Shown here: in pieces, positions 1-58,405 of the stretch | Layout: each line of letters starts with the position of its first letter | Position numbering within the stretch: position 1 is the stretch's first letter | Origin: Alistipes sp. | Lineage (GTDB): Bacteria; Bacteroidota; Bacteroidia; Bacteroidales; Rikenellaceae | Assembly (NCBI GenBank): GCA_017937125.1 | Contig: JAGBEH010000001.1 | Coordinates: 434,001 to 498,000 of the forward strand | DNA: 64,000 nucleotides | Reading direction: 5' to 3' | The notes under the pieces: model-generated | What the model was told of the DNA's origin: nothing | Seen by the model: only the letters and a program-made list of their open reading frames with translations | Databases searched by the model: none | Program-made: the position numbers and the translations under genes

Positions 1-217
1 TGGCTTCGCCTTATATACTCACGCTCGGCATAATCAAATAAATTTGCTTCTGCCCTCGCTTATTCGTATATTTGGCTTCGCCTTATATACTCTCGCTCGG
101 CATAATCAAATAAAATTTGCTTCTGCCCTCGCTTATTCGTATATTTGGCTTCGCCTTATATACTTCCGCTCGGCATAATCAAATAAATTTGCTTCTGCCC
201 TCGCTTATTCGTATATT
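1..217. repeat. Three tandem 72-73 bp repeats, each with a promoter
   Basis: Three near-identical units start at 1, 73 and 146 and end at 217; the first may continue left of the window. They differ only at a couple of bases near unit position 20 and by one extra A in the second unit. Each unit contains TTTG, a 20-bp spacer and TATATTTG, which matches the Bacteroidota promoter consensus. There are no unique spacers between copies, so this is not a CRISPR array. The array ends 23 bp before the start codon of the gene at 241. Confidence 0.9.
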
Positions 218-219
218 TG
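188..219 (+). promoter_or_regulatory. Promoter proximal to the NAGPA-like gene (third repeat copy)
   Basis: TTTG at 188-191, a 20-bp spacer and TATATTTG at 212-219 give an exact Bacteroidota sigma-ABfr-type promoter about 20 bp before the ATG at 241. Identical promoters sit at 43-74 and 116-147 in the upstream repeat copies. Confidence 0.75.
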
Positions 220-11722: not shown

Positions 11723-11993
11723 TTGCCGGCAGAAGAGGTCGTTTCCGCATATTTTTTGCGTCTGCGGAACGCGCTTTTCCGTCGCTCCGACAATGAAAAC
11801 GGGGGGGGGATATTCGCCCGTCTCCGCTTCGCGACCGCAGACTGCGGCCGTAGTGCCGATATGCGTCTGTGCGGCCGAAACCCGTTTTTGTCGGATATTG
11901 CGAATGTTATTTTTTTAACAGCGAATTTATTAGGAGTATCGGCAATGATTTTGTACCTTTGCGACCAAATCGAAATTACAATTTTTTAGGCAT
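11723..11993. other. Intergenic region with a G9 tract
   Basis: These 271 bp between rsmA and nifJ contain no convincing gene. They hold a run of nine G at 11801-11809 and the nifJ promoter near the right end. Confidence 0.6.
11930..11961 (+). promoter_or_regulatory. Promoter of nifJ
   Basis: TACCTTTG at 11954-11961 matches TAnnTTTG. TTAG at 11930-11933 is a 3/4 match to the -33 TTTG with a 20-bp spacer. The leader to the ATG is about 26 nt. Confidence 0.6.
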
Positions 11994-26877: not shown

Positions 26878-26946
26878 AGGGGGGGGGTAATGTTCTATTA
26901 GGGTGAAAATGCGGCATTCATATGTCGTACGAATGTTTTATATGGT

Positions 26947-54781: not shown

Positions 54782-54831
54782 CCGACGGGTTCGGGTTTTT
54801 ACCGTGAAATAATATCGATTCGGTTATGTGT

Positions 54832-54859
54832 CGGCCGTCGCGTTCTCTTCCGACGGCCG
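54832..54859. other. Hairpin downstream of the GH2 gene
   Basis: CGGCCGTCG (54832-54840) pairs perfectly with CGACGGCCG (54851-54859). It has no T-run, so whether it terminates the GH2 transcript is uncertain. Confidence 0.4.
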
Positions 54860-54925
54860 CTCGCATCCCGCACCGCACCGTTCGTGTCGTTTTTTGCTCT
54901 TCCTTTTGCCTTATTTTGCGGTTGA

Positions 54926-55007
54926 ATATTACCTTTATGTTAAATCTCTAGGCAAGGAGGGAGTTTCCGCGACTTCCGAGTGGTCGCCAGCCGTAGAGGT
55001 GGTTGTG
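54926..55007 (+). repeat. Left inverted repeat, 82 bp (IR-L)
   Basis: The reverse complement of 55964-56045 with 78 of 82 bases identical (mismatches at 54950, 54955, 54998 and 55004). The longest perfect run is 42 bp (54956-54997). It encodes the end of an FN3 domain in the same frame as the lipoprotein gene. Confidence 0.95.
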
Positions 55008-55526
55008 GAGAAAAAGCCGAGTATTGCTTCGGGTACTGTCTTGTGGGCGGAAGGTTGGAGCAATTTCGGAACGAACAGCACGACATTTACCAGCTGTACT
55101 CTTATCGACTCTTACTCATATGACGGACGCACCGGTTATATGGATAACGCGACATCTGTTACATATACGGCGAATAATAATGTACGTGCAACGACCTCCT
55201 CAGGCGGTAATTGCTCCGGCGGACATTTGTGGTTCAACAAATCCGTAGCAGGTGAACTAACCACTTCGGCGATAAAATTATACGGAGCTACGGAACTCGT
55301 ATTCTCTCATTCGCAAGGTACATCCGGATCGTCTGTAACGTCATCGTATAGTACCGATGGAGGAACAACTTGGACAGAACTCGGAACGCAATCCGGTGCG
55401 ATAGCTGAAAAAACATATACGTTCACTGTGAATGCCGGCACCGAATCTATTATGATAAAGTTGAGTCATCCCGCAAACAATGCTAAAAACACACGCGTAG
55501 ATAACTTAAAATTGGCAGTGAAATAA
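54926..55526 (+). pseudogene. Silent alternative C-terminal cassette of the surface lipoprotein
   Basis: The plus strand is open from upstream to a stop at 55524-55526, but no signal peptide, start or promoter precedes it. It begins with the 27 residues encoded by the 82-bp repeat (Y-Y-L-Y-V-K-S-L-G ... V-E-V-V-V), which also occur at residues 727-753 of the lipoprotein with one difference (Lys for Thr). It then continues for 172 residues that differ wholly from the lipoprotein's present C-terminus. The domain is rich in Ser, Thr, Gly and Asn, with W-A-E-G-W-S-N-F-G and S-T-D-G-G-T-T-W-T motifs typical of secreted beta-sandwich (jelly-roll) modules. Inversion across the two repeats would fuse it in frame to the expressed gene. 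An independent gene starting at a GTG at 54828 is possible but unlikely. Confidence 0.8.
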
Positions 55527-55545
55527 TTGCGCTAATCATATTACA

Positions 55546-55580
55546 AGACATCGGCGGCCGAAATTCGGCCGCCGATGTCT
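55546..55580. terminator. Symmetric hairpin between convergent cassettes
   Basis: AGACATCGGCGGCCGAA (55546-55562) pairs perfectly with TTCGGCCGCCGATGTCT (55564-55580). It lies between the stop of the silent cassette (55526) and that of the expressed gene (55604), so it would end the transcript in either orientation. Confidence 0.65.
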
Positions 55581-55603
55581 TTGTGATATAATCAAACAAT
55601 TTT

Positions 55604-58222
55604 TTATGGCTTATAAGTAATTGTTACTGATTTTATTTTTGCTTGAGCCGAGTCTGTATTAGTAAATGTTACCGAAGATGCCGAACCTGTCCAAATACCT
55701 GTTGAAGTATTATACGATCCGACCGATGCTGACAATGTCTTATTTGTTGAGAAAGTAAACTCCACTTTAGTAATTGTCGCACCACTTATTGTCATCGTAT
55801 TCTTCGCATAAAAACGTAATGCTTTATCTTTTGCGTGCTCATTGGGAGCGTTACTTCCCGCCCCTGTATTGGCAATACAAGTAATTACATTGTCTGTTTT
55901 GGATATACCGTCTTTTTGTCCGCTACCGGCATCGAATGTAAATGTTACAACCATTTCTTTCGGCACGACCACTTCTACGGCTGGCGACCACTCGGAAGTC
56001 GCGGAAACTCCCTCCGTGCCCAGAGATTTAACATAAAGGTAATATGTTGCCCCCTCGGTAAGAGTTGCCGTAACGCTGACGGAGTTTTCCGCAATATTAT
56101 CGCCTTCCGCAACTGCTTCCGCATTCACGTCATTCACGGCGGTCAGCTTGTATGCGTATCCCGATGCGCTTTCGTCTGCATTCCACGTAGCTTTGAAGCC
56201 CGAAGCCGATATATCCGAAACGGTTATTCCCGTCGGAGCATTCAACTGAGGCAATGCGCCTTCTGCCGCTTTTTTGACTGTGACGGTTTTCGCCTGCGGG
56301 TCGTTCTCCGTACGGCTTACCGTGATGGTGGCGATGATCTGCTCTTCAGCCGCAGCTGGCGTGTTGCAGGTAACGGTTACCGTCGTGGCGGACTCTCCTG
56401 CGACGAACGTCGTTTTGTCTATCGTAATGTCCGTATTGTTCGGTCCGATTACGATCGTACCGCCGAATACGTCCGATGTAACCGTGAACGAATTCGTGTT
56501 CTCCGTTGCGGGAATGGTTATCTCTGCGACGGAAACAGCCAATTTCGAACCTGCCTGCTTTACGGCGATCTCTTTCTTGACGGTATCGTCCGATGCCAAA
56601 GTAAGCGTTATTTTGCCTTCGCGCGCTTCGGCCCCGTAGTTCGATGTGAACGAATAGAGCACGTGCGTATCATCTATTTCGGCGTAGTTCACGACCGTGC
56701 CGTCGCAAGTCGCGGTTATTTCGGCGCCTGCTTCGATGCCCGATGTGGTGTATTCTATCAACTCTGCTTCCTTGCCCGCTGCGCCGACTTGGATTTCATC
56801 TGCCGCATTGATAGTCTTCGGTATCCTGACATTCGCCCACGGATAGAGCTTGACGGGTTTCTGGGATGCCGAAGTATAGCAAGAGAATAATGCACTGCTT
56901 GTATTGAATTGCATTACGTGTGCATATTTTTGATCGATCTTGGGCGCAGTTATGGTAAACGCACCGTCTTTCTCGGTAATTGCCCAATATGACCCTGCTG
57001 CCAATGCGGTTTCTGCTTTGCCTTGCAGATAATTGCTGCCGCTTGCTGCCGTGGATGTAGCCGTTAAATATAATCCGCCTGCGTCTTTAATGGTGTAAAG
57101 ACCTGCGTATGTGCCTTCCGTAACTTTGGCGATCGTCATCTTGGCATCGGCGATCTTCGTAAGATCCGAAGGAATGATCGTTTCGCCGTCGAGCGTAACA
57201 TTCGTGCCTTTGATGTTGTTGCCGCTTTCGTATTTGATAGCCACTTGTTTCGAATTGTTGTTCTCTCCGTAAATCACCCATTCGCCCGAGAAGTCCGCTT
57301 CTGCCTCTTTGACGGTGCAGTTCTCTTCGAGTATCGTCAGGTTGATGACGGCGATGTCGCCCTTGGGGAGCACCATATCTTTCGAGAGCGATACAGTCTT
57401 GGAGATGCTGTAATGCTCGGTTTCTATGTCGAAAGTAAGCTCCTTGCCCGATGCTATGGCAGTAGGATTGATTACGAGATAAACGGCATTCTTCTCTCCA
57501 TTGACGCTGATCGCATTAGCGGCGTCATACGATGCCTTTACATTGTCGGTTTTTACGGTCCACTCCTGTACTTCGCGGGTATCGAAATCGACTTTGGCGC
57601 GTCCTGTCAGAACCGCATCGGGAGCAGTCATCGTTACCGACTTGACATTTTCGCCCTGCACTGCGGCGAAATCGCTTTTCAGGTTGATTTTGACAACCGA
57701 CATTATGCGCGAGAAATAGAGATCTTCGACCGCTACTTCGCCGTCTATCGCTATATAAATGCAGGGTGCCGAAACGAGAATGTCGGCCGTGCCGTCGAAC
57801 GAATCGGGCGTCGGGTTTTGAGTGCCGCTCAAAGTAACGCCGATAGTTCCGTCCGAGTATCCCTCATATATGGCCGTTGCGGGGTATATCGCTTTAAGAG
57901 TGCCCTCTTCGGCGGCTGTTGTCGATGTGCCTTCAAAATCGGCCGTAGCCCCGTTTTCGGCGACATTGGCAAATTCGGCATCGGCTTTGGTTCCCGATGA
58001 TATATTGCCGAAGAATACGCCTATCAGGTCGTCCTTGTTCCATTTCGGAGTGTAGACCTTGCCGTCCTGCTCGATGAAAGTTCGGGTCTCGTCGATGTGC
58101 GCCTTTATCGAGAATTTTATTCCGTTATTCTCTGCGGAGTTGCCTATGTCGGTTTTCTCGCACGAGATGAGTGCCGTCGCAGCTGCTGCAACGAGCACGA
58201 AAGATTTCCTAATGCTTTTCAT
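55604..58222 (-). CDS. Fimbrillin-like lipoprotein with BACON and FN3 domains, switchable C-terminus
   Basis: Protein of 872 aa with a lipoprotein signal peptide (A-L-I-S-C, Cys20). The N-terminal 300 residues resemble the Mfa-like/fimbrillin family (I-D-E-T-R-T-F, W-N-K-D-D-L-I-G-V-F-F). A separate beta domain follows (about 310-470), then one or two BACON-like domains (about 485-635) and an FN3 domain (about 640-753). The last 119 residues (754-872) form a distinct module. The end of the FN3 domain is encoded by IR-R (55964-56045). The protein is probably surface-exposed, either as a fimbrial tip/adhesin component or a glycan-binding protein; the exact role is not known. GC content is visibly lower than in neighbouring genes. 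It is preceded by a small ORF after 12 bp. Confidence 0.85.
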   Translation of the reverse strand: MKSIRKSFVLVAAAATALISCEKTDIGNSAENNGIKFSIKAHIDETRTFIEQDGKVYTPKWNKDDLIGVFFGNISSGTKADAEFANVAENGATADFEGTSTTAAEEGTLKAIYPATAIYEGYSDGTIGVTLSGTQNPTPDSFDGTADILVSAPCIYIAIDGEVAVEDLYFSRIMSVVKINLKSDFAAVQGENVKSVTMTAPDAVLTGRAKVDFDTREVQEWTVKTDNVKASYDAANAISVNGEKNAVYLVINPTAIASGKELTFDIETEHYSISKTVSLSKDMVLPKGDIAVINLTILEENCTVKEAEADFSGEWVIYGENNNSKQVAIKYESGNNIKGTNVTLDGETIIPSDLTKIADAKMTIAKVTEGTYAGLYTIKDAGGLYLTATSTAASGSNYLQGKAETALAAGSYWAITEKDGAFTITAPKIDQKYAHVMQFNTSSALFSCYTSASQKPVKLYPWANVRIPKTINAADEIQVGAAGKEAELIEYTTSGIEAGAEITATCDGTVVNYAEIDDTHVLYSFTSNYGAEAREGKITLTLASDDTVKKEIAVKQAGSKLAVSVAEITIPATENTNSFTVTSDVFGGTIVIGPNNTDITIDKTTFVAGESATTVTVTCNTPAAAEEQIIATITVSRTENDPQAKTVTVKKAAEGALPQLNAPTGITVSDISASGFKATWNADESASGYAYKLTAVNDVNAEAVAEGDNIAENSVSVTATLTEGATYYLYVKSLGTEGVSATSEWSPAVEVVVPKEMVVTFTFDAGSGQKDGISKTDNVITCIANTGAGSNAPNEHAKDKALRFYAKNTMTISGATITKVEFTFSTNKTLSASVGSYNTSTGIWTGSASSVTFTNTDSAQAKIKSVTITYKP
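55964..56045 (-). repeat. Right inverted repeat, 82 bp (IR-R)
   Basis: Partner of IR-L at 54926-55007, 956 bp away between inner edges and in inverted orientation. It lies wholly inside the lipoprotein reading frame, codons 727-753. Confidence 0.95.
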
Positions 58223-58234
58223 AATCGTTGCTTA

Positions 58235-58405
58235 TTAGAGATCGTAGGAGTTCTCGTCTTTCTCTTCGAACGGGTGGCCTGCCTCGTTGGCTCCTCCCAG
58301 CGACTGTGCGAATCCCGCTTCGAGTTCGACGGTGAAATGTTCAATGGCGGGAGCTTGGTATGTTCGCAACCCCCCCCCTTGCAATGTAATCTCGGTGATT
58401 TTCAT
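58235..58405 (-). CDS. Small protein upstream of the surface lipoprotein, with G9 tract
   Basis: This 56-aa ORF is too short for most gene callers. From the ATG at 58405 it reads M-K-I-T-E-I-T-L-Q-G-G-G-L-R-T-Y-Q-A-P-A-I-E and ends in an acidic tail (E-K-D-E-N-S-Y-D-L). The Y-x-x-P-x-I-E opening followed by a short acidic tail resembles small proteins that Bacteroidales often encode just before surface lipoprotein genes. The three Gly codons are a run of nine G (C9 on the plus strand, 58370-58378). Loss or gain of one G would break the ATG-started frame. An alternative start is the TTG at 58369 (44 aa), which would bypass the tract. The stop is 12 bp before the lipoprotein ATG, so coupling is likely. 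Confidence 0.6.
   Translation of the reverse strand: MKITEITLQGGGLRTYQAPAIEHFTVELEAGFAQSLGGANEAGHPFEEKDENSYDL

Follow-up and report, generated by a model that had tools for sequence, protein, structure and literature searches.

Can a surface lipoprotein gene of an Alistipes sp. exchange the domain at the end of its product by DNA inversion? The question is raised by a locus in a 64-kb stretch of DNA (hereafter the window; C4:434001-498000 of a 2.16-Mb, 12-contig assembly that is about 90% complete), in which the expressed gene for an 872-residue lipoprotein converges on a silent cassette that encodes another C-terminal domain, each being joined to one arm of an inverted repeat. We regard the locus as a candidate two-state coding inversion, a shufflon reduced to a single silent cassette, and lean slightly towards this reading. 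The kind is already known, namely the shufflon-like coding inversion. The elements of the locus are as follows.

54926..55013, plus strand: left repeat arm, at the head of the silent cassette and in the same codon phase as the right arm
54956..54997, plus strand: left-arm copy of the 42-bp exact core, whose partner is 55974-56015 on the minus strand
55014..55526, plus strand: silent cassette of 170 codons between arm and stop, plus the stop; encodes a beta-rich domain like the one at the end of a 1401-aa lipoprotein of genome G200
55538..55589, no strand: symmetric hairpin between the two stops, from folding of both strands
55604..55957, minus strand: expressed C-terminal module, 117 residues and a stop, with matches in 44/180 same-genus genomes, own included
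55958..56045, minus strand: right arm; its product is the last part of the FN3 domain (YYLYVKSLGTEGVSATSEWSPAVEVVV)
55604..58222, minus strand: expressed gene for the 872-aa lipoprotein: lipobox-like N-terminus, weak BACON, weak FN3 and the C-terminal module

The two arms align over 88 nt with 6 mismatches (93% identity) and include exact runs of 24 bp (54926-54949) and 42 bp (54956-54997). An earlier note on this DNA, which proposed the switch, had described an 82-bp inverted repeat of 78/82 identity; that repeat is confirmed and extends to the 88 nt given here. The translation common to both arms is YYLYVKSLG(K/T)EGVSATSEWSPAVEVVV, in identical codon phase, and the frames are open to a TAA at 55524-55526 on the plus strand (left arm) and to a stop at 55604-55606 on the minus strand (right arm). 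Reading frames and folding therefore bear out the shared phase, the separate stop for each arm and the symmetric hairpin between the stops, and a closer look revealed no frame break at either junction, a flaw for which the same note had allowed. The placement of one copy at the FN3 end inside the expressed gene also holds as to position, the FN3 match itself (aa 662-746; Pfam E 5e-4, 20.7 bits) lying below the cut-off of 25. In the window the arm pair is the only separated inverted repeat, the remaining four inverted matches being single hairpins (blastn, E<=1e-3), and about 152 kb from elsewhere in this genome, searched as nine stretches, yielded none (E<=1e-2). The best inverted match within 54782-58222 scored 132 bits, whereas no shuffled sequence (n=100, 2-base blocks) exceeded 26.5, so a chance origin of the arm match is excluded. 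The best dyad within an arm matched at 8/13 positions, which is unremarkable as judged with no control run.

Recombination between the arms, for which the 42-bp exact core would be the likeliest crossover stretch, would invert about 1.1 kb, so that the N-terminal 755 residues would be followed in one state by the 117-residue module that is now expressed and in the other by the silent module of 170 residues. The inverted product would have 872-117+170 = 925 residues, as the earlier note had it; the exchange that it gave as 119 residues for 172 is counted here, with 88-nt arms, as 117 for 170. Frame, stop and terminator would be retained in both states, and therefore the identity of the protein, not on/off expression, would change. 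The hairpin at 55538-55589, with folding energies of -40.2 and -42.2 kcal/mol on its two strands (z -8.7 and -10.1), is likely to act as a bidirectional terminator, usable in either orientation; scans for sigma-70 promoters and terminators gave counts at chance level. The enzyme could be one acting in trans or, possibly, RecA working on the 42-bp core.

At its left edge, which is sharp, the cassette lacks a start of its own and is for that reason presumed to be promoterless; its frame is open across the 170 codons. Because its product is 63% identical to the C-terminal end of an intact 1401-aa lipoprotein of the same-genus genome G200, we take the spare tail to be a real domain; its predicted model has a mean pLDDT of 70.9. 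A model of FN3 joined to the expressed tail was poor (51.7) and was set aside. Sequence searches found no relatives in the PDB (best E 1 and 0.44). The claim that the opposite-strand fragment encodes a different C-terminal domain stands: spare and expressed tails bear no convincing resemblance to each other (best blastp E 0.31), so that inversion would mean a real domain change. GC content at third codon positions is 42.9 in the spare tail and 28.2 in the expressed tail, against 59.0 in the remainder of the lipoprotein, and two genes of the neighbourhood have 72.0 and 68.5; both tails are thus AT-rich relative to the host, as expected of modules moving between genes. The spare type is rare. 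It was found in one other genome within the genus (E<=1e-8), in 1/392 other genomes across the order (E<=1e-6, 23% identity), at five loci in a genome-contig search, one of them G200 again (L079), and as one weak tail relative in viral contigs (L045), which has neither arm nor nuclease. After L079 was merged with G200, and L061 with L081 of the same sequence, six distinct spare-type loci remained.

The expressed tail type, in contrast, is carried by 44 of the 180 same-genus genomes (E<=1e-4). We fetched 29 of its loci (L113-L141), dropped L134, which gave no domain match on re-search, and added L069 and L036, so that 30 were scored; L113 and L038 are the same gene of genome G028, and only L113 was counted. 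At 27 of these 30 loci the tail domain lies within 20 residues of the stop, and a nuclease homologue follows on the same strand at 24, the other six having none in their short flanks. Pfam scans assign the nucleases of L069, L044 and L033 to Endonuclease_NS, and, as background, none of 43 loci collected for unrelated purposes (307 kb in all, with some overlap) contained the nuclease. Elsewhere, the expressed tail type usually ends lipoproteins encoded just 5' of a secreted DNA/RNA nuclease gene. A nuclease also lies just 3' of the spare type at two of its six distinct loci, G200 and L080, the latter in one relative of about 30% identity. A switch might thus exchange modules of one functional class. 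The gene and cassette pair, which the earlier note could not place, can also be placed somewhat better: genes for related proteins, or for proteins with related tails, often lie 5' of a secreted nuclease gene.

Two of these loci (L044:5527-14899 in G200 and L069:2762-9745 in the genome of the window) have an identical gene order in two species: a BACON-type lipoprotein, a secreted DNA/RNA nuclease, an Exo_endo_phos_3 protein and a TonB-receptor-like protein. In G200 the spare-type tail ends the 1401-aa lipoprotein, and in the genome of the window the expressed-type tail ends a lipoprotein of 537 aa. The gene content suggests a locus for scavenging nucleic acid, with a lipoprotein tail that is not the same in both species. 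Since both tails occupy the same place at this second locus type, this placement, the best evidence on the point, suggests that the two are exchangeable modules.

The window lipoprotein has a lipobox-like start whose Cys21 is invariant across an alignment of seven sequences, and a weak BACON match (aa 520-557; 18.3 bits, below the Pfam cut-off of 25). At E<=1e-20 the 872-aa protein matched 13 other same-genus genomes (14/180 with its own). In 12 of these it is the N-terminal part that matches (27-36% identity), and in the remaining one, G028, it is the tail; a genome-contig search found no relatives of the protein. The G028 protein (918 aa), whose N-terminal part also aligns with the window protein (tblastn 9.7e-15), matches Mfa_like_1 at 6.8e-10, and for that reason the N-terminus of the window lipoprotein is likely to be fimbrillin-like, the protein itself giving no fimbrillin family match up to E 5. 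A nuclease is present at 6 of the 13 loci of these N-terminal relatives, some of which stop at contig ends. Repeats were seen at two of 14 relative loci: at L033 (1-133 and 3817-4015; genome G004) they stand in inverted orientation and flank a lipoprotein-nuclease pair related to the window gene, and at L031 they form two small, distant pairs. None lies at a tail boundary.

Both tails are found on lipoproteins just 5' of a nuclease, often for the expressed type and at few loci for the spare one, and a switch may for that reason change what the surface protein binds, be it nucleic acid, a glycan or a partner protein. The fullest version of this proposal, in which a reversible inversion at the 88-bp repeat, by a trans-acting enzyme or RecA, toggles the ligand-binding tail of a member of a nucleic-acid-scavenging lipoprotein family and so splits a clone by nucleic-acid or partner specificity, we consider rather unlikely as a whole.

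A number of observations weigh against a working switch. The first, on which the odds that we assign to it mainly rest, is the missing inverted copy. Whole-segment DNA matched only its own genome (1/180 same-genus genomes; among the matches listed, at most two candidates were scored per genome), and neither an inverted copy nor a genome of opposite orientation was found among the 179 others. The comparison of related strains proposed in the earlier note therefore met no orientation of the segment at all. A search with the FN3 end in the 180 genomes returned the two own copies and 10 weak FN3 matches in other genomes; arm DNA was absent from 60 relatives and from the five spare-tail relatives of the genome-contig search, and a second viral-contig search and searches of plasmids and phages gave no match. 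At the spare-tail loci L081 and L083 separated inverted repeats are present and the arm is absent, and none of 29 related-domain loci has a separated repeat within about 1.5 kb. Four of the six distinct spare-type loci are without a nuclease, as judged on the fetched flanks, and the window has no secreted nuclease gene beside the lipoprotein gene. The 6 mismatches in 88 positions, two of them in the outer part, mean that the arms are not kept identical. Translation would not reach the outer part of the left arm in either orientation, and yet 24 bases there are exact, which points to a recent duplication or to a need for the arm.

No recombinase is at hand either. The 64-kb window has no integrase- or resolvase-family match, and the nearest recombinases on the same contig (C4:323850 and C4:846118) lie about 165 kb and about 356 kb away. 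Elsewhere in the genome there are six tyrosine and three serine recombinase matches. Judged by length and domain content, two of the tyrosine recombinases look XerC/D-like; three have Arm-DNA-bind_5 together with SAM_5, a make-up common to known Bacteroidales invertases. Nine stretches, eight of which surround recombinase genes, were compared with the arm; their longest exact match to it is one 12-mer, so that no exact run of 13 nt or more is present, and the seven partial arm matches listed genome-wide (E 0.3-2) are at chance level. A single weak match about 0.6 kb 5' of the C8 tyrosine recombinase gene (17/19 nt, E 2) is likewise taken as chance. Same-phase inverted repeats joining alternative coding ends, one mark of a shufflon, are thus present at the locus; a dedicated and usually adjacent recombinase, and a site common to the other sites of the same enzyme, were not found. 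Of the two-state switch as first proposed, the arms, phase, stops, shared hairpin and intact spare tail stand, and an inverted genome and a nearby recombinase are lacking.

An Mpi-type site like AACGTTCGT, presumably reflecting the Mpi consensus, was sought in the arms and rejected, being absent from them. Such an Mpi-like inverted pair does adjoin a serine recombinase at L059/L073: a AAAACGTTCGTTTT inverted pair (L073:8997-9154; L059:2010-2167), 130 bp apart, lies between the serine recombinase gene and a divergent gene and is possibly an Mpi-type invertible promoter.

What else could have produced the arrangement? The main rival, which we give a real chance that nonetheless falls short of even, is that a convergent second lipoprotein gene, with an FN3 end and another tail, lost its 5' part by deletion, leaving arms that are paralogous FN3 ends and undergo no inversion. 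Sharp edges, a common phase, converging stops and a hairpin are all expected of such a remnant too. It also accords with the lack of significant gene homology 5' of the left arm (best E 0.27), as after a deletion, with the 7% divergence of the arms, with the absence of a nearby recombinase and with the frequency of lipoproteins with such tails in the genus. It accounts less readily for a residual homology that is just a short stretch ending at the domain boundary, and for a cassette that has neither stop nor frameshift, which is improbable under drift if its silence is old and indels are frequent; the silence could, however, be recent. As a rough estimate, the probability that the cassette stays open under unselected drift of 3.5-7% is 0.57-0.32 with no indels and 0.10-0.009 with one indel per ten substitutions. 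The open cassette thus favours the switch, with a strength that depends on the assumed indel rate and on the silence being as old as the arm divergence.

It is very unlikely, in our estimate, that the cassette instead supplies sequence for gene conversion now and then, or for a one-way exchange of the tail, as contingency-type variation and with no reversible flip. The AT-rich tails, which suggest imported modules, and the different tail types of lipoproteins 5' of a nuclease in the genus would agree with such a reservoir. The tails share only one homologous flank, however, and their distal parts have no clear common sequence, so ordinary gene conversion would be without a second anchor, which inversion does not need. 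A false inverted join in the incomplete assembly, with its 12 contigs, is hardly credible, since the arms are 93% and not 100% identical and the cassette sequence occurs once in the assembly.

The candidate inversion can be set beside known systems, as far as the available text of the sources describes them. The R64 pilV shufflon (Rci invertase) has four segments, seven 31-nt sfx sites and rci in the same operon, whereas the window locus consists of a pair of 88-nt arms with a single spare tail and lacks a recombinase in its vicinity. In Ureaplasma mba/UU376 and UU172, inverted repeats in surface protein genes are described as yielding chimeric structures (PMC3047005); the likeness lies in inverted repeats within a surface protein gene, but organism and protein are unrelated, and inversions are reported there and none was seen here. 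The excerpted account in PMC12632263, citing Chanin 2024, has within-gene inversions on record for gut Bacteroidales, and in this the gene-altering or within-gene inversions of Milman 2023 and Chanin 2024 resemble the present candidate. The same account describes type V tip pilins of Bacteroidota as diversified by retroelements; in contrast, the neighbours here are not pilus genes, and the Mfa_like_1 match belongs only to the related G028 protein. Among the papers listed in literature searches none was found to describe the gene or an inversion in such a Bacteroidales lipoprotein, the catalogues of Milman 2023 and Chanin 2024 lying outside the comparison.

If flipping occurs, a gut-type Bacteroidales bacterium would choose between two unrelated tail domains on one protein without switching that protein off. 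Given the association of these tails with secreted nucleases, which is strongest for the expressed type, variation in the capture of extracellular nucleic acid by such bacteria would become testable. Coding inversions may then also exist without a neighbouring recombinase and escape scans that are keyed to recombinases.

The lipoprotein gene has a GH2 gene and an acyltransferase gene as neighbours; a search for the syntenic place in 30 relatives by way of the GH2 neighbour gave best non-self matches of at most 46% identity. One further feature lies upstream of the gene.

58235..58405, minus strand: small open reading frame (ORF), 56 aa, with an in-frame nine-G run at 58370-58378

This run could be a slippage site; further nine-G/C runs at 11801-11809 and 26879-26887 of the window lie between larger ORFs. 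At the far end of the window (1-219), a unit of 72-73 bp stands in three tandem copies, each matching TTTG-N-TANNTTTG (at 43, 116 and 188), which we take to be the Bacteroidales-type promoter consensus.
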